Origin: Rubeoparvulum massiliense
Lineage (GTDB): Bacteria > Bacillota > Bacilli > Rubeoparvulales > Rubeoparvulaceae
Direction of reading: 5' to 3'
DNA length: 64,000 nt
Assembly: GCF_001049895.1 (NCBI RefSeq)
Contig: NZ_CVPE01000004.1
Span: forward strand, 310,001-374,000
Shown: in pieces, positions 25,962 to 42,247 of the stretch
Layout of the letters: every line of letters starts with the position of its first letter
Numbering within the stretch: the stretch's first letter is position 1
The notes under the pieces: model-generated
The model's database searches: none
What the model was told of the DNA's origin: nothing
What the model saw: the letters and a program-made list of their open reading frames with translations, nothing else
Translations under genes and position numbers: made by a program

Positions 25962-28900
25962 ATTTCGATCCACGCACCTATGAAGGGTGCGACAAGGGGA
26001 TGTCCTCTGTGTAGATGACTTACTAGCAATTTCAATCCACGCACCCATGAAGGGTGCGACATCTACTAGAGATCGCATGTATTGGTTCCTTCTGATTTCA
26101 ATCCACGCACCCATGAAGGGTGCGACCTCAACTACCGCATACATAATTACCCCATCTGAGAATTTCAATCCACGCACCCATGAAGGGTGCGACGCTGGCC
26201 ACTGTGGATGGAACAAAATACATTGATAATTTCAATCCACGCACCCATGAAGGGTGCGACCTTTAATACATCTCTTGATACATTACTCGGATTGATTTCA
26301 ATCCACGCACCCATGAAGGGTGCGACGTAACCATACCAATTCCAGACACCACCGCACCGGGAATTTCAATCCACGCACCCATGAAGGGTGCGACGGTTTC
26401 TATGGCTAGGTTAGCCGCAACGCTTGTTTTATTTCAATCCACGCACCCATGAAGGGTGCGACATAGATCGCTTTACACCTTTTCTGTATCGAATGCATTT
26501 CAATCCACGCACCCATGAAGGGTGCGACTTTGGAATCTTGTCGAGGTCATATTCGGCGAAAGATTTCAATCCACGCACCCATGAAGGGTGCGACGATTTT
26601 ATTGCAGGAGTATTCACGGGTAATTGGATTTCAATCCACGCACCCATGAAGGGTGCGACGTGGAGCAGGGAGTCGATAGTGACTCGGTCTACGTAATTTC
26701 AATCCACGCACCCATGAAGGGTGCGACGTCGACAAAATCACGTTTGAGTCAACCATTGGCGATTTCAATCCACGCACCCATGAAGGGTGCGACGTCTACA
26801 ATGCCATTGTTGTTTGCAAATCTTTGATAATTTCAATCCACGCACCCATGAAGGGTGCGACGTCAATACCCATCGCAATGTCGTACTCGGCAAATGGATT
26901 TCAATCCACGCACCCATGAAGGGTGCGACTTCACCAGTAAGCATCCATTGGCGCTCAGATGATTATTTCAATCCACGCACCCATGAAGGGTGCGACTTAT
27001 CCTCTAGGCGAGGAGTACTGCGATCATCAAATTTCAATCCACGCACCCATGAAGGGTGCGACGTGGGATAATTACTAGGAGGTTCAATCATGGGAATTTC
27101 AATCCACGCACCCATGAAGGGTGCGACGGCTTTCCGATTAGCATTTGCCCCATACTTTACTATTTCAATCCACGCACCCATGAAGGGTGCGACACAAGCG
27201 CGACAATTAGGGTTATCTCCATATGCGATTTCAATCCACGCACCCATGAAGGGTGCGACGTGCAGTATTTGAAATGAAGAAAGCGTATAAAGATTTCAAT
27301 CCACGCACCCATGAAGGGTGCGACTTTTTCACTATCTATGATAGCAAAAGGAGAATACATTTCAATCCACGCACCTATGAAGGGTGCGACTTGAAAAACT
27401 AGAAGAAACACAAAGACTAGCAGTAATTTCAATCCACGCACCCATGAAGGGTGCGACACGGAATTCCACCTTTGAAAACTTCATCCCTGGAATTTCAATC
27501 CACGCACCCATGAAGGGTGCGACGGGCAGTACGATACACACCATCACCACAGGGGCAGATTTCAATCCACGCACCCATGAAGGGTGCGACCAGCCGTTGC
27601 CACAAGATACACCGCCAATGATCGATTTCAATCCACGCACCCATGAAGGGTGCGACCACGGGTCACCTTGCCAAGATTTTAGTATTGCAGGATTTCAATC
27701 CACGCACCCATGAAGGGTGCGACTTTGCTGTACTTGCTACTGTACGCGCCAAAAAATGCATTTCAATCCACGCACCCATGAAGGGTGCGACAGTAAAACA
27801 GATAATTAGCACACTGGGTGCAAAATTTCAATCCACGCACCCATGAAGGGTGCGACATAATTGAATATAGGTTGAATCATGGGGTAGCTATTTCAATCCA
27901 CGCACCCATGAAGGGTGCGACACCCAGGTGACTTGTCGATTATTATATTTGACCTATTTCAATCCACGCACCCATGAAGGGTGCGACATCATCAAATCTT
28001 GGTACACGTCCAACTTCCGAATTTCAATCCACGCACCCATGAAGGGTGCGACTAAAACGTGATGAAGGAATATTGCAAGTGATGGTATTTCAATCCACGC
28101 ACCCATGAAGGGTGCGACCATATTCTGCGCGATACATCATGTCATTTTCCTTGATTTCAATCCACGCACCCATGAAGGGTGCGACCTACATATTACATTT
28201 TGTAAAGGGGATAACATAATTTCAATCCACGCACCCATGAAGGGTGCGACTCAACTGATTGCATAGGTATAATATTGCTTAGTTATTTCAATCCACGCAC
28301 CCATGAAGGGTGCGACTAAAAGTTATCGATTCCATAAACCTGCCTTTTTTATTTCAATCCACGCACCCATGAAGGGTGCGACTAAAAGTTATCGATTCCA
28401 TAAACCTGCCTTTTTTATTTCAATCCACGCACCCATGAAGGGTGCGACAAAGAATTTTACTTATATAGTTTTGACTGGTTTAAATTTCAATCCACGCACC
28501 CATGAAGGGTGCGACACCGTATTATTAATTGGATTAGGTATATCTCTCTGATTTCAATCCACGCACCCATGAAGGGTGCGACTTATACAAAAGTACCTTT
28601 AGGAGATTGTTTAGCAATTTCAATCCACGCACCCATGAAGGGTGCGACGTAAAAGTTATCGATTCCATAAACCTGCCTTTTTTATTTCAATCCACGCACC
28701 CATGAAGGGTGCGACAATCCAGCGGAACCTATCGTTCAAGTATGTGGTAATTTCAATCCACGCACCCATGAAGGGTGCGACAAAAGGGGAATGAGGTGCG
28801 CATTAGAGCACGCGGAATTTCAATCCACGCACCCATGAAGGGTGCGACAAAAGGGGAATGAGGTGCGCATTAGAGCACGCGGAATTTCAATCCACGCACC

Positions 28901-31900
28901 CATGAAGGGTGCGACAAGTTTATCATAATAAGTGTCTTTGATTTTTGTTATTTCAATCCACGCACCCATGAAGGGTGCGACGAGGCAGTAAATGCAGTTT
29001 GGTTACGTGCATATGATTTCAATCCACGCACCCATGAAGGGTGCGACTAGAAATCTTTATGGTATTCATTAGATATTGATAATTTCAATCCACGCACCCA
29101 TGAAGGGTGCGACGGCAATATTGATAAACCTTCTTCGTTTCTTCTAGATTTCAATCCACGCACCCATGAAGGGTGCGACAACATGAGTATGCGAGTTAAT
29201 AAGGAACTATTGATTTCAATCCACGCACCCATGAAGGGTGCGACGGCGATGGAACTGTATAAAGTCACTTCTTTTTCTATTTCAATCCACGCACCCATGA
29301 AGGGTGCGACGTACAACTGGAGGGGTAATCTAAATGAGTTTGATATTTCAATCCACGCACCCATGAAGGGTGCGACGGCGATGGAACTGTATAAAGTCAC
29401 TTCTTTTTCTATTTCAATCCACGCACCCATGAAGGGTGCGACTGGAAGAGGGTAATCAAACTAATCTAGCTGATGTTATTTCAATCCACGCACCCATGAA
29501 GGGTGCGACGATTATTCCATTAAAGTCACGCTATCGCAGATTTAATTTCAATCCACGCACCCATGAAGGGTGCGACGCTTGCAGAAGTTTAGTTGGCTCA
29601 TCAAGAGTGGAATTTCAATCCACGCACCCATGAAGGGTGCGACCGCATAATTTTGTTTAACTCCTTGTTTAATTCACATTTCAATCCACGCACCCATGAA
29701 GGGTGCGACTTGATCGCTATCTTTCAGCAATTCGTTTGTAATAGGATTTCAATCCACGCACCCATGAAGGGTGCGACTTGCATTGGTTAGCTGTATCACT
29801 TCGTATTTCTTATTTCAATCCACGCACCCATGAAGGGTGCGACAAGTTTTAGGACAACCCCAAGGAGGTAAGCCAATATTTCAATCCACGCACCCATGAA
29901 GGGTGCGACTGTTCCCAGGTAAAACCTAACTGCTCGCCTAGATATTTCAATCCACGCACCCATGAAGGGTGCGACGGATGCAATAAACGCTCCTGAGTTT
30001 TCTTTGAGAATTTCAATCCACGCACCCATGAAGGGTGCGACGTGTTCCTTTTGTTCAAGGTAAGCTTGGGGAAGTTATTTCAATCCACGCACCCATGAAG
30101 GGTGCGACAGGTTATGCCAAGTAACCTATCCATTTTTGGATGATTTCAATCCACGCACCCATGAAGGGTGCGACGTTAAGTCAGTTGCTATGACGCAAGC
30201 TGATGAAGATTTCAATCCACGCACCCATGAAGGGTGCGACGAGAGAAGGAGATCGGTTTGTGTCCATTCCGGAGATTTCAATCCACGCACCCATGAAGGG
30301 TGCGACATCGTCGATTAGGTTTTAAATTTACTCGATTAATTATTTCAATCCACGCACCCATGAAGGGTGCGACACCAGCGACAATAAGCGATACAAAAAA
30401 AATGCTAAATTTCAATCCACGCACCCATGAAGGGTGCGACTATCACAACTGTAGTGCTCTTCATCAAAAAGACTATTTCAATCCACGCACCCATGAAGGG
30501 TGCGACGGTGATAAATCATGAAAACCATGCACATTGCCTGTATTTCAATCCACGCACCCATGAAGGGTGCGACTGTATGACGGTGCTACAAGATACCGAT
30601 GGCATTATTTCAATCCACGCACCCATGAAGGGTGCGACACTACCTTAGGAGTTTTACTGTTGTCGCATTGAGTATTTCAATCCACGCACCCATGAAGGGT
30701 GCGACGTCTTTTCGATAATATCAGGTCCACCTGTGACTGATTTCAATCCACGCACCCATGAAGGGTGCGACGCAAAATGGTATTACAGGTATGACATAAT
30801 CGACCCATTTCAATCCACGCACCCATGAAGGGTGCGACCGGTCCATATTTTTACTCACCTTCTTCTAGTATATTTCAATCCACGCACCCATGAAGGGTGC
30901 GACAATCCAGCTGGCGGAATTAAAAGCATTAGTGTTTTTATTTCAATCCACGCACCCATGAAGGGTGCGACACATCCACCACATGGGGCAAATGGAGCTC
31001 TACTTATTTCAATCCACGCACCCATGAAGGGTGCGACGATAGGAGGTAAATCATATGTCACCTTACGAAAATTTCAATCCACGCACCCATGAAGGGTGCG
31101 ACGAGGTGCTTCGGCAATATACAACATTCCATCATATTTCAATCCACGCACCCATGAAGGGTGCGACTGGATAAACTTGATAACTCATCATGGGAAGGAG
31201 GATTTCAATCCACGCACCCATGAAGGGTGCGACTGGTTATCGAATGGAGATTCGTATTTCATATACTATTTCAATCCACGCACCCATGAAGGGTGCGACA
31301 TTTCTTCCAATCCTACTCATACTGGTTTTAGATATTTCAATCCACGCACCCATGAAGGGTGCGACAATATTGACGTTAAAGAACTAACAGATAAGTTTGA
31401 TTTCAATCCACGCACCCATGAAGGGTGCGACGTACCACTGTCTCCCCTATGACGATCTAAAAAAATTTCAATCCACGCACCCATGAAGGGTGCGACGAGA
31501 GCAGATTGCACCAAAAAAAAAGGAAACAAAAATTTCAATCCACGCACCCATGAAGGGTGCGACAAAAGTACAAAGAAACAAGTGCAGTGTTTGAGATATT
31601 TCAATCCACGCACCCATGAAGGGTGCGACGCAATAAGTGATAGCATTATAGATTTTGCATACAATTTCAATCCACGCACCCATGAAGGGTGCGACATAGA
31701 ATACATTAACAAAAAATAAAATATAGAGAGATTTCAATCCACGCACCCATGAAGGGTGCGACTATACTCGGCAAAATCTGCCAGACTCCAATCCGGCATT
31801 TCAATCCACGCACCCATGAAGGGTGCGACCCCAACATAACGTAAGCAGTGTATATGGCAGCATATTTCAATCCACGCACCCATGAAGGGTGCGACGACTT

Positions 31901-32161
31901 CAAGCGTGAGATGCAATTCGCCATGCCAAAATTTCAATCCACGCACCCATGAAGGGTGCGACGTGCTTGAGGATATAGAGCAACGTGTCTGTATAATTTC
32001 AATCCACGCACCCATGAAGGGTGCGACAATACAGTGGTAGATGTTCAGGACTTAGGAGAGTTATTTCAATCCACGCACCCATGAAGGGTGCGACGTCTCA
32101 AGGAGAGTCTATGGAGATTCCACCCACTGATTTCAATCCACGCACCCATGAAGGGTGCGAC
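25962..32161 (-). CRISPR. Type I-C CRISPR array, 94 repeats and 93 spacers
   Basis: I counted 94 copies of a 32-nt repeat whose transcribed (minus) strand begins GTCGCACCCTTCATGGGTGC and ends GTGGATTGAAAT, a classic I-C repeat with a CGCACCC/GGGTGCG stem. Spacers are about 33-36 nt. Orientation is set by the cas genes and leader on the right, so new spacers enter near 32161 and the oldest lie near 25962. The distal terminal repeat (25962-25993) carries two changes, as expected for a trailer end; the repeat at 27359-27390 shares one of them. Three spacers are repeated: 28317/28383/28649, 28782/28849 and 29245/29377. Open frames inside the array are spurious. Confidence 0.99.
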
Positions 32162-32328: not shown

Positions 32329-32619
32329 CTAAAGAATTAAGGGACCTTCTAAATCGATCGATTCTTTCACACCAAGATGTTCTACTTTAGTCTTATAATT
32401 ATTACCCAACTGATAAAACCTAAGGCTATCCTGCTCTTCATCAATAATATTTGCCAGTTCAATTTTTAGTGTCGCAAATTGAGTTGCATCTACTATACAT
32501 TCAAATACAGAGTTTTGAACACGTTGTCCGTAGTTTTGACATACTTTTGCTACCCTACGTAATCTTTTCTGCCCTGCACCACTTACAGTACTTACATCAT
32601 ACGTAATTAATACCAGCAC
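32329..32619 (-). CDS. cas2: CRISPR-associated endonuclease Cas2
   Basis: 96-residue ferredoxin-like protein, dimer in the Cas1-Cas2 integrase that adds spacers. The N-terminal MLVLITYDVST holds the conserved Asp after the first strand, and GQRVQNSVFECIVD is the family block. It follows cas1 by 8 bp and is the last gene of the cas operon, ending against the leader. Confidence 0.97.
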   Translation of the reverse strand: MLVLITYDVSTVSGAGQKRLRRVAKVCQNYGQRVQNSVFECIVDATQFATLKIELANIIDEEQDSLRFYQLGNNYKTKVEHLGVKESIDLEGPLIL

Positions 32620-32628
32620 ATGTTACAC

Positions 32629-33660
32629 CTACTTCCACATTAATGGTGGATACTCATCAAGATCATTACGTAAATAACGAGCTAGTAATAATGCTTGTGC
32701 ATGTGGTACTAATCCCCAAGAAACTTTTTCACCTAGATATGGATGTGTTATCTTTTCTTGCTTTTTGTTTTGCCACGCCGTTAAAAACTTCTTTCGGGCT
32801 TCATCTGTCATGATGACTGCTCCACTTTCTTTCTTTAAAAAATCTTCTCGATTAACCACTCTTTTATTAATTAATGATAAGACAAACCTATCTGCAAAAA
32901 CGCCTCGCAATTCCTCCATCACATCTAGAGCTAACGATACTCTTCCCGGTCTATCCCGATGCAAAAATCCAACATATGCATCAAGTCCGACGCCTTCTAA
33001 TGCAGATGTCATATCATTTGCTAGTAATGTGTATGCAAATGAGAGCATTGCATTTGCATTATCTAGTGGAGGTCTTCGTGAACGATTGTCAAAATAAAAA
33101 TCTTCTTTCTGTTGGAGTATCATTTGATTAAACAGTTTATTGTAGCTTAATGCCGCTTGACCTTCCCATCCTCTTAAACTTTCTAAGTCCTCACATTTTC
33201 TAACCTCATGAATAATCGATGATAAATGGTGGGAGACTTCTTTGAATTGAGTGACATCTACTCGTAATGGATAGTCTCTTGTCATTCTTTCAATCATCCA
33301 TTTATGATTGTAAATCTTTCCTATAATAAAGTTACGAGCAATTCTTGCTGACATCGTCTCATCTTCTGATATGAGATATTGTTTCTTTCTTAGGACAACA
33401 TTTCCCTTACTTTTCCCAATCACTCTCGCAAGGAATCTCCCATTCATTGTTAAAAATACTAATGAGATATTTCTATCAGCACAATACCCCATCAAGGCTG
33501 GACTTGCACCAGTGTATCCAAAACATACGATAGATTCTAAATTATGAAGAGGTAGTCTCCCCAATTTCTCTTGATCCTTAAGAAGAACAATATTATCTCC
33601 GTCTAAGGATAAATATACGTCTGGTTGTGTTATAAATAAGGTGTTCAATAATTTTTTCAT
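32629..33660 (-). CDS. cas1: CRISPR-associated endonuclease/integrase Cas1 (type I-C)
   Basis: 343-residue integrase of the adaptation complex. The beta-rich N-terminal domain (LNTLFITQPDVYLSLDGDNI) is followed by the helical catalytic domain with the conserved Glu in GWEGQAALSYNKLF, His in VGFLHRDRPGRVSLALD and Asp shortly after. Length and order (cas4-cas1-cas2) match type I-C. It overlaps cas4 by 4 bp (ATGA). Confidence 0.97.
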   Translation of the reverse strand: MKKLLNTLFITQPDVYLSLDGDNIVLLKDQEKLGRLPLHNLESIVCFGYTGASPALMGYCADRNISLVFLTMNGRFLARVIGKSKGNVVLRKKQYLISEDETMSARIARNFIIGKIYNHKWMIERMTRDYPLRVDVTQFKEVSHHLSSIIHEVRKCEDLESLRGWEGQAALSYNKLFNQMILQQKEDFYFDNRSRRPPLDNANAMLSFAYTLLANDMTSALEGVGLDAYVGFLHRDRPGRVSLALDVMEELRGVFADRFVLSLINKRVVNREDFLKKESGAVIMTDEARKKFLTAWQNKKQEKITHPYLGEKVSWGLVPHAQALLLARYLRNDLDEYPPLMWK

Positions 33661-34316
33661 TCATTGATCTTCCCTTCGATATAACTTTTTACAGAACGTT
33701 TATTCATTAATTGGGGTAGACAGATATGTTGCAGGGAGCAGTTCTTACAGAAAGAACCTGTCTTGACCTTAGGTGTATACTTACGCTTATAATAAGTATG
33801 CATTTCTGCAAACATCAATTTTACTTTATTTTTATTCTCTCTTGTGATAGGTACTGCAACTCGTCGTCGTATTTCATCATAAAACATGTAGCCCATTTCG
33901 ATATTGCATAATAACATTTCTTCTAGACACATCGCTTGTGCAGTCAATTGCAAAACATCCGCATCATGCGTCTTTGGTTTACCACGTTTATATTCGATTG
34001 GATAAGCAACATATGTTCCTTCAACACCATCGATTTCAATACCTTCTGAGTCTGTAATGAACTCAACTACATCACAAACCCCTGTTATCTTAAGCTCATT
34101 GGACTTTACAGGCATTGCTCGTACAATCAGTTTATTTCCACGTTTCTCCCTGATAAATGGCTCATCAGCTTTTCGATGAAGATATTGTCCTTCAATGGTT
34201 CTAACATTTTCTTCCCACTGCTGCTCAATGTGAATTAGAGCCCATTGTCGGCGACAAAATTGAAAATGCTGAATGCCAGATAACATGAGGTAATTATCTT
34301 CATCATTATCGGCCAT
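33657..34316 (-). CDS. cas4: CRISPR-associated exonuclease Cas4
   Basis: About 219 residues. RecB-like nuclease with Fe-S cluster cysteines: HFQFCRRQWALIHIE near the N-terminus and CKNCSLQHIC at the C-terminus; PIEYKRGKPK holds the nuclease Glu-Lys motif. In I-C systems Cas4 trims prespacers and selects the PAM. The start is uncertain: TTG codons at 34328 and 34319 or ATG at 34316 are possible, all inside the 3' end of cas7; the ATG gives the usual N-terminus (DEDNYLMLSGIQHF). Confidence 0.95.
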   Translation of the reverse strand: MADNDEDNYLMLSGIQHFQFCRRQWALIHIEQQWEENVRTIEGQYLHRKADEPFIREKRGNKLIVRAMPVKSNELKITGVCDVVEFITDSEGIEIDGVEGTYVAYPIEYKRGKPKTHDADVLQLTAQAMCLEEMLLCNIEMGYMFYDEIRRRVAVPITRENKNKVKLMFAEMHTYYKRKYTPKVKTGSFCKNCSLQHICLPQLMNKRSVKSYIEGKINE

Positions 34317-35169
34317 CAATGACTTCAACCTTTAACCCTTCTAATTCATTGACCGTGAATGCATAATCATTAATCGTCTTTGGATCTTCAACCTTTTTAT
34401 TTATTTCTAGTAAGCGATGTACTTTAGCAGAAGAGTATTGTCCTAACTTGGAATTATGCTCCCACCAACAAACCTTATGCACCTCCATACTACCATCTGG
34501 ACGTGCTGCTGATGTATCATTTTCAAACAATGTAACTAGGGCTTGTTTAATTTTTTCTGCATCTTTATTTGTAAATCCCGTTTTTTCAGCTAACTGAGTA
34601 TTAATACTTCCATAAAACACATAAACACCAAAATCCACACGATGCTTCATACCCATTGTATCTGAACCTTTTTCCTTTCCTGGCTCAGAATTAACGCTCT
34701 TTGTAATTTGCATACTTGTAATATCAATGGGATCAACACTGGTTGCAGTATGAATAGAGACTGGCCCCCTCACACCAACAGAAACACCTGTACCTTTTCC
34801 TGTACCTTTGAATGCAAAAACTTGTCCAAAACTCCGAACATCAATCCATTCCTTACAAGCAACCATTGCAAAATCATCATTTGAACTATCTTTTGATTTT
34901 AATATTTTATCCAATGCTTGATTTGCTTCAGCGCGTTCTCTTAAACTATTAAACTCATCAACTTTTCTATCATTTGCTTGTACAAAAACAGATTCACCCA
35001 TATCTTGTAAACGATTCCTAGTCTTTCTCTTTATTGCTACATCTGAAATTTCACCATGTCCATCATAATTCTGTCTTGGCCGATTACCATTTAAAGGATC
35101 TCCGTTTGGATTTGCTTTAGTTACTGATAGTACAACCGCAAAATCAATTTTGTGATCTAGAATAGACAT
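34306..35169 (-). CDS. cas7c: Cascade backbone protein Cas7 (Csd2, type I-C)
   Basis: 287-residue RAMP protein that polymerises along the crRNA spacer. The opening KIDFAVVLSVTKANPNGDPLNG is the typical Csd2/Csh2 start, and SGVRGPVSIHTATSVDPI-like core is present. The ATG at 35169 lies 8 nt after GGGAG; the ATG at 35175 is too close. It is located between cas8c and cas4 in the operon. Confidence 0.96.
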   Translation of the reverse strand: MSILDHKIDFAVVLSVTKANPNGDPLNGNRPRQNYDGHGEISDVAIKRKTRNRLQDMGESVFVQANDRKVDEFNSLRERAEANQALDKILKSKDSSNDDFAMVACKEWIDVRSFGQVFAFKGTGKGTGVSVGVRGPVSIHTATSVDPIDITSMQITKSVNSEPGKEKGSDTMGMKHRVDFGVYVFYGSINTQLAEKTGFTNKDAEKIKQALVTLFENDTSAARPDGSMEVHKVCWWEHNSKLGQYSSAKVHRLLEINKKVEDPKTINDYAFTVNELEGLKVEVIDGR

Positions 35170-35183
35170 GTCCATCTCTCCCT

Positions 35184-37073
35184 TTAATTAGATGCTTTGA
35201 CTGTCGCATCATTTTTTTCTTTTTTTTGATATAATTCATGACGTTGACTATAAAAACCAAGTAAGTATTTGCCTGATAGGGGTTTATTATTAAAATCATC
35301 AAACTGAATTCTAGAAGCCACATCATCAATTAGATTAGATAGGTATATGCCTTTTGTACCTAGTCGAGCTTGATAAGGTTGCAAGCTTTCTTGAATTGTT
35401 TTCCACGTTCCTGCTGGATGTCTAGAAAAAGAGTTCATATAACGAATCGCATTGGTAGCTCGCGTTTCCTCTGAACCTAACGCTCGTCTCTCTAATACAT
35501 CTGCAATCGCTAATAAACGACCGAATAAATAATCACGGTCATTATTCTCTGTATCTAATGCCACATCGTATCCCTCCTGTTTATTGATCAATGCACATGT
35601 AATGCTTAGTGTCTTTTCCCACTCCCATTTTTCCATCGATACAGGATTTGAAGCCCGATGAAAGGCACTTCTTACAATATCGATAGGAATTCTTTTTTCA
35701 TCGACAATACAAGGAAGCAATCGTTCCATGAGGCCTTTAATTACCTTATCACTTGCTTTCGGGCCATATGCAGCAATACCAATATCTTTTGTCGCTGGTG
35801 CACCATAGAATTGAACATATTCACCTTGATCATCTTTTCGATAACGATGTAGCCATACACATGTGGAGTGCCACTTTTTTAACCGATCCAAGTATAATTC
35901 CTTATTCATATTTCGATAATAAAGGACTGCTAATCGTCCAGTCGTAGCCGAATCAAGGATTAGAATATTAACGCTGGATTTTGTTGATAAATCATTTTTA
36001 TAGCCATCCAACGCCTTTGAAACCTCATTTGCGAATTCCTGATTGGTGTAGGATATTCTTTCTCGCTTTACCATTGGCGTTAGATCTAATGAAAATGTAT
36101 CTTCAGTAGGATCTGGAATACTAAGATCATCGTTACCCCATACAAGGAAGACTCGCTGATCAATAATTTTCCCTTGACGATTAATGAGCCACTTTAAAGC
36201 ATTATGTGCTTTCTGGGAAACATCATAACTAATACTCGCAACCTCATTTCCTGTACTAAAGCGTCCCCGGAAAGTAAACCCACTTGTATCATTAGCAGAA
36301 ATCAACTTCGCTTTATCTGCAGCATTTCTAATTTTGTTTGCATGTTTGTCTGTACTTGGTAACCTCTTTCCTGTTACATAACAAAGCTCATCGTCGCTCA
36401 GTAGATTCTGATAATATCGAATGAAGGATTCATACATCTCAGAGTCTTTCCATACCTTCGTCAAGATTTTATCTGGTGAATAAACATTAAACCGAATAAA
36501 AGCACTTTCTTGAGCGCCGCTAACTACCGAAAAAATCAGTGGCTTTTCCCCATATAGAGACTCATACTTCTTATCCCACGTTTCAATTAAATGATCTTGC
36601 TCATCTGAAAATAATATCCTCGCATCAACTAAATCTTGTATTAGTTGCTTTTTGCGTAAATATTTATAAATACTCTTTACTTTATTGTTACCATATGGTG
36701 ATTTTGCCCATTCCTCTAATTGTTTGATATAGTAGGCATAGGGTTCTTCCTTTTTTATTTTTCCACCATATGAAACAAAATCCCCAGCCACATAACTTAA
36801 TTTATCATGAAGAGGATATGGAGCTATCTTAGATCCAGCACGGTTAGCTGAATCTTCTGTGCATGGAATTAACGTACTTGCATCACTTTTATCAATGACA
36901 GTCGCTGAATGGAATTCACCATCTTCTGTTACTTCAACTTCAATATGAGCATTTTGAGTAGTATGAGATATGGGCAAGAGTGTAAATTCTTGACCATTAT
37001 ACTTTTTTTCAATTACACCGACTCGATCCAAATTAGATTCATACGTTTCATATAAATGTAGGAGCCAACTCAT
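35184..37073 (-). CDS. cas8c: Cascade large subunit Cas8c (Csd1)
   Basis: 629-residue large subunit of the type I-C effector, which reads the PAM and helps load Cas3; in I-C an internal start can also give a small Cas11-like C-terminal protein. [20 protein letters not shown] is the usual Csd1 N-terminus, and the C-terminal ~150 residues are helical. Its ATG overlaps the TGA of cas5 (ATGA). An internally started Cas11c is plausible here but I did not find a decisive start. Confidence 0.95.
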
Positions 37074-37789
37074 TTATTCACCTCCTGTTCTAATTGGAAT
37101 AACAGGTGCTCTGCTGAAACAACATTTGAATCATCAAAGTGCTTCGATTCCATCTCTTTAACAGTTCGGACTTGCGTACACTCATCGGGTCTAATAAATT
37201 GAATAATGCCATTTCTCATGACCGGATTCCATAAACGGACCTCCATTTGGTCTCTACCTGTCTCATCAGGATAGTTTATACCGTGAATCATTGTACCGAG
37301 ATGAATATCACCATAATTGTCATAGAACCCTTCCCCTTCACCAAAAACACATGGTTCTACATAAGCCTGACATTCTCTAGCTCCTAAGAAAACATCCCTC
37401 CTTCCACCAGCATTGAGGGAACGTTTTAAAATGCTGTAGTGTTTATTCTCATTTCGATCAAATTCCATATCTATTCGATTGAGGTTAAAGACAAAATGTG
37501 CTTTTACCTGATACTTTACATCTTTCAAATAAGTGTAATTCGCTAGCGTATTCCCTCCGCCATATTCGATGGGTCGTATACCTTTAGACTCCATCTTAAT
37601 TGAATTCATAACTCGAACTTCATCGATAATCATTAATAACGTTGGCTTCCAATAAATTGATTCCACAATTCCCTTCAATGCTTGATATGTAGGGACTTGG
37701 TATGAGAGCTTTTCTCCTCCCATTTTCGTCAAGGGATCGGTGAATAATGCATAATCACCATAGACCTCAAATTCAATTGCATTCCTCAT
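37070..37789 (-). CDS. cas5c: Cascade subunit and pre-crRNA endonuclease Cas5c (Cas5d)
   Basis: 239 residues. In type I-C, which lacks Cas6, Cas5c cleaves the repeat and keeps the 5' handle. Tyr46, Lys116 and His117 (SIYWKPT, ENKHYSI) fall at the same residue numbers as the catalytic triad reported for the B. halodurans enzyme, and the glycine-rich loop [12 protein letters not shown] follows. This makes it competent to process both array transcripts and the solitary repeat-like RNA encoded just upstream. First gene of the operon driven by the promoter at 37828-37856; GAAAGGGG precedes the ATG. Confidence 0.96.
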
Positions 37790-37827
37790 ATTTTCACCCC
37801 TTTCTTTTTAATTTTTCTTACAATTTA

Positions 37828-37856
37828 ATAGTATCTTTCTTCCAATAGCTTGTCAA
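37828..37856 (-). promoter_or_regulatory. Sigma-A promoter of the cas5-cas8c-cas7-cas4-cas1-cas2 operon
   Basis: On the minus strand TTGACA (37856-37851), a 17-bp spacer and TACTAT (37833-37828) form a near-consensus promoter, about 40 bp upstream of cas5. A partial protospacer for the solitary crRNA-like RNA begins 7 bp upstream of the -35 box. Confidence 0.8.
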
Positions 37857-37862
37857 TGATAA

Positions 37863-37884
37863 ATCATATATTATATGAATTATA
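37863..37884 (+). promoter_or_regulatory. Predicted Cascade target (partial protospacer) at cas operon promoter
   Basis: ATATATTATAT at 37866-37876 is identical to the first 11 nt of the spacer-like guide at 37942; 16 of the first 19 nt match. The three bases before it, ATC (37863-37865), occupy the PAM position; type I-C usually prefers TTC. Binding here would sit immediately upstream of the -35 box. Confidence 0.55.
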
Positions 37885-37901
37885 TTATTTGATTATTGTT
37901 A

Positions 37902-37910
37902 TGATATAAT
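37902..37910 (+). promoter_or_regulatory. Extended -10 promoter of the solitary crRNA-like RNA
   Basis: TGATATAAT gives a perfect -10 hexamer TATAAT (37905-37910) with the TG extension. Transcription starting 6-7 bp downstream would begin at 37916-37917, the first bases of the repeat-like element. No good -35 box is seen, which an extended -10 does not require. Confidence 0.6.
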
Positions 37911-37915
37911 TAATC

Positions 37916-37987
37916 GTCGCTTTTAAAGCGTGGATTGAAAAATATATTATATTATTTAAAAACCTATCTTTAAAAAGATAGGTTTTT
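37916..37987 (+). ncRNA. creR: Solitary crRNA-like RNA with degenerate repeat (CreR-type cas regulator candidate)
   Basis: On the plus strand, opposite to the cas genes, 37916-37941 reads GTCGCTTTTAAAGCG then TGGATTGAAAA. It keeps the first five bases, a shortened but still paired stem (CGCTTT/AAAGCG) and 10 of the 11 bases of the 3' handle of the array repeat. A spacer-like guide starts at 37942 (ATATATTATATTATTT) and a palindromic hairpin with T-run (37958-37987) ends the unit. The guide seed matches the cas operon promoter. Known Cas-regulating RNAs have just this layout; no second repeat or toxin frame is present. Transcription and function are inferred. Confidence 0.7.
37958..37987. terminator. 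Bidirectional terminator between creR candidate and cas3
   Basis: A perfect 30-nt palindrome (AAAAACCTATCTTT and its complement) ends in TTTTT on both strands and overlaps the cas3 stop codon. It can end both cas3 (minus) and the crRNA-like RNA (plus), and it separates cas3 from the cas5 operon. Confidence 0.8.
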
Positions 37988-40418
37988 AATACATAAGTGT
38001 TCCTAGTTGACTATCGTTATTGATATTGAGACCAAATTCCTCATTATAGGCTCCTTCTTTAAGCATGAAAATTTTTCCATCTAAATAGCTAACAAGTCCA
38101 CCGTTCTTCTCTAGTTGGTCTTTTTCATAAGCATAAAGATTAATGGTATACTGTTGAGCTTGCTTCAATAAAAGAGTCATATCTTCAATTGTCCGATTAC
38201 TATTTAATTCTGCAATAATATTTTTACCTTCCTTATAGGGTACAATTACTGATATGGTTATATTGTCGATCACACGGAAATTTTCTGCTGCTGTTTTGTA
38301 ACTGTTTATCAGAAATAATGGTATCGCTTCTCCTACCTTCTGCTTATTAGCATGGTAATAGCTGCTTTTTCCCTTTGGTGCAGTTAATAACTCTGTCATT
38401 TCTTTTTTTAATTTTGGGATAAAATAATTTAAATCAGATGAAAACTCCGTATAGTATTCCTGAAAATATCTCTCCATTGCTTGTTTTGATAATATTTGAC
38501 CCCCATGTTTTGTTTTATCACGTGCAATATCTAATAGTATTCTTCTTGACACCTGTTTCCCGATCTTAATCTCCTTTAAACGTTCTAAGTTCTCCTCTGC
38601 ATGATCAATAATATAGACATTTTGAATGCCCTTTTCTCCATGTCGATTACATCTGCCGGCTGCTTGTGCAATGGAATCCAATCCGGCCAAAGACCGAATA
38701 ACACAATCAAAACTTATATCTACCCCTGCTTCAATTAATTGGGTACTAATACAAATGATTTTGTTTCCTTCATTAAGCTGTTGTCTTACTTTAGATAAAG
38801 TTTCATTTCTGTGTGCTGCACACATTGATGTACTTAAATGAAATATCGGTATTTGTTCTTCTTGCTCCTTTAGTAGGTTATATAAATTTCTAACAACTGA
38901 CTTTGTATTTAAAATGATTAATACGCTTTGAACTTCTTCCATCTTTGATTTAACAAAATCAGCTAGCTTCTCAGTATTAAATGTTCCATTACTAGCTATG
39001 TCAATGATATTCACTCGCTTAAAAGCTTCAATAACCTGAGGAAGGTTATCAATCATCTCTGCATCAGTATTTATATCTAACTTATTTTCGACAAAGTCCA
39101 ATGCCGGCTGCGTTGCAGTACAGAGAACAATACTAGAATTACAATAGGCTTTTAAAAAATTTAATGCGTCATTAAATAGTGATACACAGGATACCGGAAC
39201 CTTTTGAACTTCATCAAATATAATCACTGACTCACTTAAATTATGAAGCCTTCTAATATTCCGACTTCCTTTTGCATAAAAAACATCTAAAAACTGCACC
39301 ATCGTTGTAAATATAATCGGTGAATCCCAGTTATCTTTCGCCAATTTTAATTTTTGTTGTACACTGATCAGCCCATCTTGACTCTCATCATTATCGTTGG
39401 AATCCTCAACTACGTTACAATGATGTTCCAAAATATTGGCTTTATCCTTTAAAATTTGGCGTACTTCTTCAGCATTTTGTTCAATAATTGTTGTATAAGG
39501 AACAACATAGATAATCCGTTGTTTGTGATAAAGTTTCGCATGCCTTAGGGCATATCTTAGGCTTGCTAATGTTTTACCACCACCCGTTGGAATCGATAAT
39601 GTATAGATGCCCGATGGTTTCTCAGCAGATTTTTCACATTGATCTGACATCTCTCTTCTCAACAGATTAATTGGTGTATTTGCATTTTTTTGTTTTTTGA
39701 AGGAGTTCATTTTATCCATGAGTCTTTCATAATAAATTTGAAATAACTCTTTATGATTAGTTAATGGCTCATTACTCTTATCTTCTTCAAATAGTCTTGT
39801 ATTTGTTCGATCCGCATCAATTAATGTACTAAAAATAAATTTTGATAAAAACATGAGTTTCTTTTGATTGCTTTCTTCTATTTTCTCAAGTAAAAAGCGT
39901 TCTAATTCATAAGCGGCCTTATCAACATAATCATGGAAGTCTGTTTCGTTTATAACTTTTTTAAAGAATTGTTTCTTTGACACCTCAAATTCAGGCAATC
40001 CCTTGTCGCGTACTCTATTTAAGTAATCTGATTGCAACTCAGGATTGAGGAAATCTTGGAGAAAAGAATGATGAGATATGATCGCATTACCAACAACCTC
40101 CGCTAGGATTCCTTTATAAGGATTATTGTTCCCCCCTGTATGAAAAAAGTCATACAACAGTTTACCTCCTGCAGTCGAGTGATCAACACTCCCCCTCTTA
40201 GGTGGTGAATCTGGATTCCTTACAGCTTCCATGATGTATTCTCTAAACTCTTCTGTATATTTTCCAAAATCATGTAGCATGCCTGCTAAACCAGTTAAAT
40301 GTTTAACGCCAATTTTTTCTCCAATGGACTCCGCCAGCTCTTTTACTTCTATTAAATGAGCTTCAACTGTCTGTATCTCATTGTCCCTTTCACGGATATG
40401 AGCAATAGAATTCATCAT
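37986..40418 (-). CDS. cas3: CRISPR-associated nuclease/helicase Cas3
   Basis: 810-residue effector nuclease recruited by Cascade. The N-terminal HD nuclease domain (to ~ residue 230) has AGMLHDFGKY and SVDHSTAGGK; the SF2 helicase follows with Walker A PTGGGKT (~270), DEVQ in place of the common DEVH, TATQP, and motif VI QAAGRCNRHGEKG. GAAAGG stands 7 nt before the ATG. It has its own transcript: a terminator and the solitary crRNA-like gene separate it from cas5, so cas3 and Cascade can be controlled differently. Confidence 0.97.
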   Translation of the reverse strand: MMNSIAHIRERDNEIQTVEAHLIEVKELAESIGEKIGVKHLTGLAGMLHDFGKYTEEFREYIMEAVRNPDSPPKRGSVDHSTAGGKLLYDFFHTGGNNNPYKGILAEVVGNAIISHHSFLQDFLNPELQSDYLNRVRDKGLPEFEVSKKQFFKKVINETDFHDYVDKAAYELERFLLEKIEESNQKKLMFLSKFIFSTLIDADRTNTRLFEEDKSNEPLTNHKELFQIYYERLMDKMNSFKKQKNANTPINLLRREMSDQCEKSAEKPSGIYTLSIPTGGGKTLASLRYALRHAKLYHKQRIIYVVPYTTIIEQNAEEVRQILKDKANILEHHCNVVEDSNDNDESQDGLISVQQKLKLAKDNWDSPIIFTTMVQFLDVFYAKGSRNIRRLHNLSESVIIFDEVQKVPVSCVSLFNDALNFLKAYCNSSIVLCTATQPALDFVENKLDINTDAEMIDNLPQVIEAFKRVNIIDIASNGTFNTEKLADFVKSKMEEVQSVLIILNTKSVVRNLYNLLKEQEEQIPIFHLSTSMCAAHRNETLSKVRQQLNEGNKIICISTQLIEAGVDISFDCVIRSLAGLDSIAQAAGRCNRHGEKGIQNVYIIDHAEENLERLKEIKIGKQVSRRILLDIARDKTKHGGQILSKQAMERYFQEYYTEFSSDLNYFIPKLKKEMTELLTAPKGKSSYYHANKQKVGEAIPLFLINSYKTAAENFRVIDNITISVIVPYKEGKNIIAELNSNRTIEDMTLLLKQAQQYTINLYAYEKDQLEKNGGLVSYLDGKIFMLKEGAYNEEFGLNINNDSQLGTLMY

Positions 40419-40592: not shown

Positions 40593-42167
40593 TCAATCAT
40601 GCGTATTCCCTTCTACCTCATGATTCTTCCCTTCCATTTCTTGATGCTCATGGACAGACTTTAGATCCTGCATGGGAGTGACATCCTGAGTTGCAGCGGG
40701 TTCCTTCATTTTGCCTGCAAATCCTTCTAACAGCTCCTTCACATCAATGCCTGATGATGCCTTTAAGGTCTCTTGCAAGGTTGCCATGAGATCTGTGGCA
40801 TAGCTAGCGACGCGACCAGCGCCACCATTCTTACTGCTACCACCTGTATCCACAACCGTGATAGTATCGATATTACCCAAGGGACTGGCCACTTCCTTCG
40901 CATATTCAGGCAGCATCTTGAACATCATATCCATCACAGCGGCTTGACCATATAACTGGAAGGCTTCGGCAATCTTCCGCTTTGCCTCTGCTTCTGCGAG
41001 ACCCTGTAAACGAATAACATCCGCCTCTGCTTCCCCAATGGCCCGCTGTGCCTCCGCCTTCGCTAAACCTTCCAAGCGCACCTGTTCGGCACGTGCCTTC
41101 GCTTCCGCTTCAATCTTAAACTTCTCTGCCTCAGCAAATTTCATCTGCTTAGCCTTCTCCGCTTCTGCTGCTTGCTCTACTGAATAGCGCTCGGCGTCCG
41201 CTTTCTTCTTCATCTCCGCATCATACTGCTTCTCAACACGCTGAATCTCTTTCTCTTCCAGTTCAATCTGTTTCTCCCGCTCAATAATCTGAATCTTCAT
41301 CTCTTCTTCCTTCACCTTTTGCTTGGTGATGGCTTCTTGAAGATTGTATGCTTGGTCCGCCTGTGCCTTGGCAATATCCTGTTCACGACGGTAGTCAGCA
41401 ACCTTTAATTCCTTCTCCTTCTCCGATTCAGCGATCTGCGCATCCCTTGCGAATTCGGCTTCCTTCGCCTCTTTCTCTGCCTTGGCTTGCCCAATCCGCG
41501 CTTCCTTATCTGCCTCTGCACTGGCGATGGCAGCATCCCGTTTTACCGCTGCAATCTGTGGCTGACCGAGCGCATCCAGATAGCCATTCTTATCGGAAAT
41601 TTCTTTAATGGTAAACGAGACAATCCGTAATCCCATCTTACTCAAGTCAGTAGATGCCACCTCTTGAACCTTCTGAGCAAATTTCTCCCGATTACTGTAA
41701 ATCTCTTCGACGGTTAATGAGCTAAGAATCGCACGTAGATGCCCTTCCAAGACTTCCTTCGCTTCCATCTTTAAATCTTCTGAGGTCTTGCCCAGATACT
41801 GTTCAGCAGCTGTCGAGACTTCTTCAATGGTACTCCCTACTTTAATGATGGAAACACCATTCACAGTCACTGGTACCCCTTGCTTAGTATAGGTATCCCG
41901 TGTTCCAACCTCTAGCTTATGGTTGAGTAAGCTAAGTAGCTCTGCTCGTTGAACAACAGGGACCACAAAGGTACCTCCACCACGAATAATCTTCACCTTT
42001 TTACCATCTTCTGACCGCACGACGTTCTTACCATTCCCCAATAAACTACCTGTGACAATCAGTGCTTCATCAGGACTGACAGTACGATACTTTGCAATAA
42101 AAACAAGAATTAATAAGACCAATACACCAAGGGTTATAGCGCCAATAATCAAAATCGATGTATCCAT
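40593..42167 (-). CDS. floT: Flotillin-like protein FloT
   Basis: 524-residue scaffold protein of bacterial functional membrane microdomains. A single N-terminal membrane segment (ILIIGAITLGVLVLLILVFIA) is followed by the PHB/SPFH domain (~35-200) and a long Ala/Glu/Lys coiled coil with the repeated AEAEAKR/AEAEK motif (~210-420). AAGGAG precedes the ATG at 42167. It follows an NfeD-family gene in an operon like B. subtilis yuaF-floT, with a sigma-W-like promoter upstream, fitting a cell-envelope stress role. Confidence 0.94.
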   Translation of the reverse strand: MDTSILIIGAITLGVLVLLILVFIAKYRTVSPDEALIVTGSLLGNGKNVVRSEDGKKVKIIRGGGTFVVPVVQRAELLSLLNHKLEVGTRDTYTKQGVPVTVNGVSIIKVGSTIEEVSTAAEQYLGKTSEDLKMEAKEVLEGHLRAILSSLTVEEIYSNREKFAQKVQEVASTDLSKMGLRIVSFTIKEISDKNGYLDALGQPQIAAVKRDAAIASAEADKEARIGQAKAEKEAKEAEFARDAQIAESEKEKELKVADYRREQDIAKAQADQAYNLQEAITKQKVKEEEMKIQIIEREKQIELEEKEIQRVEKQYDAEMKKKADAERYSVEQAAEAEKAKQMKFAEAEKFKIEAEAKARAEQVRLEGLAKAEAQRAIGEAEADVIRLQGLAEAEAKRKIAEAFQLYGQAAVMDMMFKMLPEYAKEVASPLGNIDTITVVDTGGSSKNGGAGRVASYATDLMATLQETLKASSGIDVKELLEGFAGKMKEPAATQDVTPMQDLKSVHEHQEMEGKNHEVEGNTHD

Positions 42168-42247
42168 AAGCAACTCCTTCCACCATTTTTTTCATCTCCA
42201 TAGCGTTATGCATGCCTATCTTTCTAGCAATCCCTCATTTCATCTCC

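Follow-up and report, generated by a model that had tools for sequence, protein, structure and literature searches.

A candidate type I-C Cas-regulating RNA between cas3 and cas5 in Rubeoparvulum massiliense, with a guide that covaries with its target

The type I-C locus and the small gene in its cas3-cas5 gap

The stretch of Rubeoparvulum massiliense DNA considered here (assembly GCF_001049895.1, contig NZ_CVPE01000004.1, forward-strand positions 310,001 to 374,000) comprises 64,000 nucleotides (nt), is referred to throughout as the window, and is numbered from its first letter. It carries on its minus strand a complete type I-C CRISPR (clustered regularly interspaced short palindromic repeats)-Cas system, consisting of cas3, a 196-nt gap, the run cas5c-cas8c-cas7-cas4-cas1-cas2, and a long array (Table 1). 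The subject of this report is a small gene on the plus strand of that gap which resembles a gene for a CRISPR RNA (crRNA), and which is examined as a candidate Cas-regulating RNA (CreR) directed at the promoter of the cas5-8-7-4-1-2 operon.

The gene consists of an extended -10 box, a single degenerate I-C repeat, a guide, and a terminator-like hairpin. The repeat is a shortened version of that found in the array, of which its front part GTCGCTTTTAAAGCG (37916-37930) retains the first five bases and its handle (37931-37941) ten of the eleven handle bases. The sequence GTGGATTGAAA is found just once on the plus strand of the window (37930), as against 93 occurrences on the array-bearing minus strand, and the shortened-repeat pattern has a single occurrence in the whole 2.84 Mb genome. 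Folding of the whole 74-nt RNA gave a predicted structure with a z value of -4.6. Being palindromic, the hairpin that follows the guide could also end the cas3 transcript; it was not among the terminators listed by a strict consensus scan of the region, and an Rfam scan of the same region returned nothing at the gathering score (best E 0.1). A first-pass annotation of the sequence had described such a gene, running from TGATATAAT through the repeat and the handle (10 of 11) to a guide and a palindromic terminator, together with a near-consensus promoter for the cas operon; every one of these parts was found in place, the guide from 37942, the hairpin to about 37988 and the cas promoter on the minus strand.

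Table 1. Features of the type I-C locus and of the crRNA-like gene in the window
Feature	Position	Strand	Remarks
cas3	37986-40418	minus	separate upstream gene, 3' end at the hairpin; NCBIfam TIGR01587 and TIGR01596
Terminator-like hairpin directly after the guide	37957-37988	plus	palindromic; overlaps the end of cas3
Guide, functional part (positions 1-16), ATATATTATATTATTT	37942-37957	plus	
Degenerate solitary I-C repeat	37916-37941	plus	GTCGC TTTTAAA GCG + handle TGGATTGAAAA; 5-bp stem CGCTT/AAGCG
Extended -10 box TGATATAAT of the guide RNA gene	37902-37910	plus	
Protospacer-adjacent motif (PAM) TTC	37877-37879	minus	
Target protospacer ATATAATATATGATTT	37861-37876	minus (cas5-coding)	pairs with guide 1-5, 7-11, 13-16
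Promoter of cas5-8-7-4-1-2, TTGACA-N17-TACTAT	37828-37856	minus	consensus match
cas5c	37070-37789	minus	first gene of the presumably repressed operon; NCBIfam TIGR01876
cas8c	35184-37073	minus	NCBIfam TIGR01863
cas7 (Csd2)	34306-35175	minus	NCBIfam TIGR02589
cas4	33657-34328	minus	NCBIfam TIGR00372
cas1 (I-C)	32629-33660	minus	NCBIfam TIGR03640
cas2	32329-32619	minus	NCBIfam TIGR01573
Main CRISPR array	26029-32161	minus	92 exact repeats GTCGCACCCTTCATGGGTGCGTGGATTGAAAT, spacers 33-36 nt

A target upstream of cas5 in the window

On the minus strand, and beside a TTC PAM, guide positions 1-17 are matched at every position except 6 and 12 by a site that ends close to the promoter of the operon, the -35 box of which starts 4 bp past the paired region. 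The site is itself a perfect 7-1-7 dyad, the palindrome TCATATATTATATGA (TCATATA-T-TATATGA). When PAM and guide were sought with N at positions 6 and 12, the genome yielded one perfect match, that upstream of cas5, and the only other site with two or fewer mismatches was the opposite strand of the same palindrome. Within the window, where shuffling gave an expectation of 0.23, a limit of three mismatches admitted three matches, namely the target, its other strand and the guide itself.

Recurrence of the element and its target in relatives

Loci with cas5 were collected from overlapping genome samples, most of them drawn from larger groups: 18 loci-bearing genomes out of 151 in a first set of relatives (E <=0.001), 37 out of 398 in a sample of the class, 6 out of 26 in one genus, 71 out of 245 and 31 out of 200 in two families (cut-off 1e-60), and 32 out of 398 in a sample of the phylum (cut-off 1e-20). 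With nine duplicate upstreams removed beforehand, and L128 having no upstream sequence, the pooled set comprised 158 unique cas5 upstreams. The handle was found within one mismatch in 43 of these, and one further locus (L008) was added by a de novo scan. The 40-locus set used below leaves aside L029, L050, L153 and L163, of which L153 was still scored as element-bearing in the gap and tree counts. A further locus, L062, with an altered handle spotted by eye, is left out of every positive count and figures among the loci without the element in the gap and tree counts; its guide matches its target at positions 1-17 except 6 and 12. An exact 25-base search of the genome collection returned one record, from Schinkia azotoformans, in which the element lies in the same place between cas3 and cas5, the repeat portion is identical, and the target with its 7-1-7 dyad is conserved, the rest of the gap having diverged.

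Pairing was scored over the 14 core positions of the guide (1-5, 7-11 and 13-16). At the best TTC site in the first 450 nt, the 43 loci gave 14 core matches in 26 cases, 13 in nine, 12 in three, 11 in two and six in three; over 4300 shuffled gaps the maximum was 12, reached five times, and guides set against gaps without the element attained 13 or more in 13 of 4859 comparisons. Since this score is by design blind to positions 6 and 12, the choice of site was repeated with equal weight on positions 1-16 and with any PAM allowed. At least 12 of the 16 positions then matched in 40 loci, and the PAM was TTC in 35 of them, the remaining five being ATC, TAA, ATG, TTT and CTT once each (the ATC reflecting a three-way tie in the window itself). 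Mismatches at these equal-weight sites fell 34 times at position 6, 26 times at position 12, nine times at position 16, and three times or fewer at any other. A de novo scan, which sought GAAA and then a guide with a TTC target (at least 13 of 14), recovered 35 of the 158 upstreams against none of 785 shuffles.

As regards the other parts of the gene, the 45 nt that precede the handle contain a -10-like hexamer (at least 5 of 6) in 34 of the 40 loci, a count made without a chance control, and terminators were counted in 27 of the 40 by a procedure that misses hairpins in which the stem extends into the T tract, as it does in the window.

Covariation of guide and target

The 40 loci with a TTC target (at least 11 core matches) were collapsed to 31 distinct guides, not all of them independent by descent, and the targets were dealt to the guides at random. 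Each of positions 1-5, 7-11 and 13-16 matched its own target far above the dealt targets (P <=0.0034 each, mostly 0 of 5000), mismatches being as few as 0 against 20.7 expected at position 8, 0 against 18.8 at position 10, and 1 against 20.7 at position 15. No association was evident at position 6 (27 mismatches among the 31 guides, 23.4 expected), position 12 (25 and 24.9), position 17 (22 and 23.0) or position 18 (16 and 18.9); position 20 gave 18 against 21.4, and position 19 a slight excess of mismatches (28 against 23.5, P 0.02). It follows that 14 base pairs have been kept in blocks of five, five and four, with positions 6, 12 and 17-20 free. Active avoidance of pairing at positions 6 (P 0.06) and 12 was unsupported by these figures.

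The P values lean towards significance because the selection of targets favours core matches and because the loci share descent; the shuffle null indicates that such selection alone cannot produce the matches. Evolution has thus kept guide and target matched over 31 distinct guides, a feature that is expected of a CreR without being part of its strict definition. In type I Cascade the R-loop has a 6-nt rhythm in which every sixth position (6, 12) is left unpaired, and the 5+5+4 pattern deduced from the guides matches that rhythm.

Placement of the target, operon structure and spread

Placement was surveyed in 38 loci (at least 12 core matches, TTC), the count of promoter distances having no control. 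Among the minus-strand targets, the -35 box of the best-scoring promoter starts 18-34 nt from the PAM in 25 of 33, the value in the window being 23. Six loci (L035, L039, L040, L041, L110 and L161) have a plus-strand target instead, at a distance of 15-19 bases from the start of cas5; in the five of these that entered the survey, the TTC is the complement of the GAA that opens the Shine-Dalgarno stretch and the best-scoring promoter is located upstream of the target. Both placements would suit a block to transcription, and only that upstream of the -35 box could also suit activation.

The element goes with split operons. All 39 element-bearing loci in which cas3 was found have a cas3-cas5 gap of 188-465 nt (L037 and L110 gave no cas3 match); among 101 loci scored as lacking the element the gap is shorter than 90 nt in 86 and 188 nt or more in four. 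One of the four, L062, does carry the element; L029 and L163 show a repeat-like piece but no convincing target, and nothing was seen in L146. A Cas5 tree (FastTree, 154 of the 158 loci), with 55 of its 150 inner branches open and some branches long, requires at least 26 changes of element state, at least 13 of them forced by starred branches, and the element has therefore often been gained or lost.

Three loci with unusual elements were followed individually. The repeat-like element of L029 has its handle 156 nt upstream of cas5, a hairpin and a -10 box, and no target in the gap; its guide found no site in the genome with two or fewer mismatches, and the element has perhaps been retargeted or has decayed. 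L050 keeps repeat and guide in the absence of cas promoter and target, which suggests a relic in which promoter and element were lost in stages. The guide of L163 has two genomic sites with two mismatches each, the first of which is, by position, its own element.

Similar elements in front of cas3

The region preceding cas3 was read in 40 genomes hand-picked from the 115 loci without the handle at cas5, and the cas3 start was located in 38 of them. Ordinary array repeats lay upstream in ten; in four others, all of one family (L200, L203, L205 and L206), there was a single degenerate repeat oriented away from cas3. These four elements are less clean, and a TTC target at 13 of 14 accompanies just two, namely L203 (mismatches at 6, 12, 16 and 17) and L200 (mismatches at 11 and 12), as against 0 of 190 shuffles; upstream of cas3 in L205 and L206 no TTC target of 13 of 14 was present. 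The guides of L200 and L205 also partly fit a second site on the opposite strand.

Proposed mechanism and competing explanations

From these comparisons it is very probable that the element specifies a type I-C CreR-like RNA through which Cascade would repress cas5-8-7-4-1-2. A short RNA would start at about 37916, keep its hairpin and an intact I-C handle, and end at the terminator-like hairpin; Cas5c would process or bind it, and Cascade would be loaded with it. Cascade would then recognise the TTC read from 37879 to 37877 and open, directly ahead of the -35 box, a 16-nt R-loop with 14 paired positions (5+5+4), and RNA polymerase would be blocked at the promoter of the operon. Given the usual behaviour of Cascade, such pairing is probably too short for cleavage by Cas3. 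By analogy with known CreRs, repression may be relieved by abundant array crRNAs or by a Cascade-disabling anti-CRISPR; cas3, which lies upstream and is split off by the hairpin, would escape it, as fits the anatomy of the locus. The first-pass annotation had likewise proposed a I-C CreR guiding Cascade to the cas promoter and had suggested guide-target covariation in relatives as a check; the covariation was found, over 31 distinct guides, and strongly supports the proposal, the strand, the PAM and the details of pairing having had to be altered.

With less assurance, we lean towards regarding the arrangement as a lineage-wide I-C design, in which Cascade and the adaptation genes would be held under a CreR brake with cas3 outside it; a 14-bp R-loop (5, 5 and 4, with positions from 17 onward unused) would be the length that silences without cutting; the target would have two placements; and in some genomes whose cas3-cas5 operon is fused, a similar element would have relocated to a position ahead of cas3. 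Were this so, loss of free Cascade, whether through array load or an anti-CRISPR, would raise Cascade but not Cas3 throughout the lineage.

A number of observations tell against repression by a Cascade-bound RNA, or leave room for other readings. With equal position weights three sites in the window, a plus-strand one beside ATC included, tie at 14 of 16, and the A/T-richness of the window together with its palindrome leaves the site ambiguous when the relatives are disregarded; the tie is broken because the relatives favour TTC and mismatches at 6 and 12. Guides set against the gaps of other species reach 13 of 14 or more in 83 of 1806 cross pairs, which we put down to relatives sharing guides. 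L029, L050 and L163 bear the handle without a convincing target, L153 pairs at 14 of 14 but beside TTT, and pairing is weaker in L037, L079 and L130 (12 of 14) and in L039 (11 of 14). The best-scoring promoter lies elsewhere in eight of the 33 minus-strand loci (L002, L033, L037, L079, L133, L135, L136 and L137). Spread is patchy, 113 of the 154 Cas5 proteins in the tree being scored without the element upstream of cas5. Lastly, the position of the window's target, upstream of the -35 box, would be open to an activator as well.

The last point leads to the alternative that Cascade with its CreR, bound just upstream of the -35 box, helps RNA polymerase. The distance of 18-34 nt from PAM to a -35-like box in the window and most of the minus-strand loci, with the paired part mostly ending before the box, would accord with such a role, which is nevertheless very improbable: the Cascade complex should be broader than the stretch that pairs and could have the -35 box within its reach, and the five plus-strand targets surveyed all follow the best-scoring promoter and lie at the Shine-Dalgarno stretch, a position from which activation is hardly to be expected. 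Known CreRs, as far as the accessible portions of PMC13131331 and PMC12737573 describe them, repress.

Still less probable is the version of the first-pass annotation, in which the same RNA was directed to a plus-strand target at 37866-37884 beside the ATC of 37863-37865. That match is literally there (16 of the first 19 positions, 11 of them contiguous), having come to notice because the target site is palindromic, and the palindrome could permit binding both ways. As the main target it was rejected, since TTC on the opposite strand is backed by 35 of 40 loci and only in that register do the mismatches fall at 6 and 12. The PAM is accordingly the canonical TTC instead of ATC, guide and target pair over 5+5+4 bp, leaving positions 6 and 12 open, instead of over 11 nt followed by partial matching, and the reservations then expressed over an unusual PAM and a chance match in A/T-rich DNA largely fall away.

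Three further possibilities merit little credence. If the palindrome TCATATATTATATGA served a repressor protein as its operator and the guide match had arisen only because the sequence is A/T-rich, the perfect dyad of the window and its conservation in S. azotoformans would be explained, but the targets of other relatives (for example L003) are not such dyads and change along with the guide; this very remote reading was rejected as contradicted by the covariation. An antisense RNA pairing with the cas5 mRNA leader independently of Cascade is hardly plausible, for although the guide is antisense to the stretch beside the ribosome site in the plus-strand-target loci, the target in the window is upstream of the promoter and so not transcribed from it, and both the freedom of positions 6 and 12 and the preservation of a crRNA handle suit Cascade rather than bare RNA pairing. 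That the solitary repeat is only a decoy for Cas proteins, like the phage Racr, or a decayed array remnant, as the relic-like L029 and L050 might suggest, is most unlikely for an element between cas genes whose guide has been conserved and changes together with the promoter region.

Relation to known systems

CreRs are crRNA-like RNAs with partial complementarity to a cas promoter that bring about autorepression (accessible portions of PMC13131331 and PMC12737573); they are named for types I-B, I-E and V-A in the portion available of the former, and described without subtype names in that of PMC12948488. The R. massiliense gene is likewise crRNA-like, has a degenerate repeat adjoining cas genes, and carries a guide partly complementary to a cas promoter (a consensus match) beside a proper PAM. 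It differs from the CreRs named in those portions in belonging to a I-C locus, subtype not being a defining feature. A literature search, the scope of which excluded the primary 2023 CreR paper, found no report of a I-C CreR. Other features may be set against CreR, though known CreRs, documented here from partial sources, may share them: the one shortened repeat, the terminator-like hairpin, the 5+5+4 pairing, the regulation of the Cascade-adaptation operon and not, as placed, of the separate cas3, and the six relatives in which the target is on the ribosome-site side rather than upstream of the promoter. We therefore call the I-C element a CreR-type RNA with features worth direct tests, namely the 5+5+4 pairing, the two placements, and a cas3 left outside.

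A further likeness is to CreA of the CreTA system (Haloarcula, type I-B). According to the accessible portion of PMC8501985, mutation of H. hubeiense CreA demonstrated that positions 1-5 and 7-11 must pair and that 6 and 12 need not, the PAM being TTC. The two have in common a solitary degenerate repeat with a terminator at its end (in H. hispanica), the TTC PAM, pairing at 1-5 and 7-11, and the free positions 6 and 12. As described in that source, CreA silences a toxin RNA, whereas here the guide is aimed at the cas promoter region and its pairing continues through positions 13-16. No toxin-RNA promoter was found as a target, the only perfect target in the genome being that which precedes cas5, in an analysis that included no search for very small toxin RNAs. 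The solitary-repeat anti-CRISPR RNAs of phages (Racr) also mimic the array repeat (accessible portion of PMC10651486); these are viral-encoded, unlike the conserved guide and target inside the cas locus, between cas3 and cas5, reported here, a contrast that rests on the flanking cas genes, with no search of the wider window for prophage.

Type I-C is among the commonest CRISPR subtypes (accessible portion of PMC7684278). If the proposed mechanism holds, many Bacilli would set their CRISPR levels and anti-CRISPR responses through Cascade itself. The pairs of guide and target found in nature also supply 31 distinct readings, not all independent by descent, of which I-C R-loop positions matter in cells and of how much pairing silences without cutting, and are of direct use for I-C gene repression tools.

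Other features of the window

The main array contains duplicated spacers, one present twice in tandem and another twice with one spacer in between (28285-28448 and 29213-29442). Directly upstream of cas3, on the same strand, lies a gene for the flotillin FloT (40593-42173).

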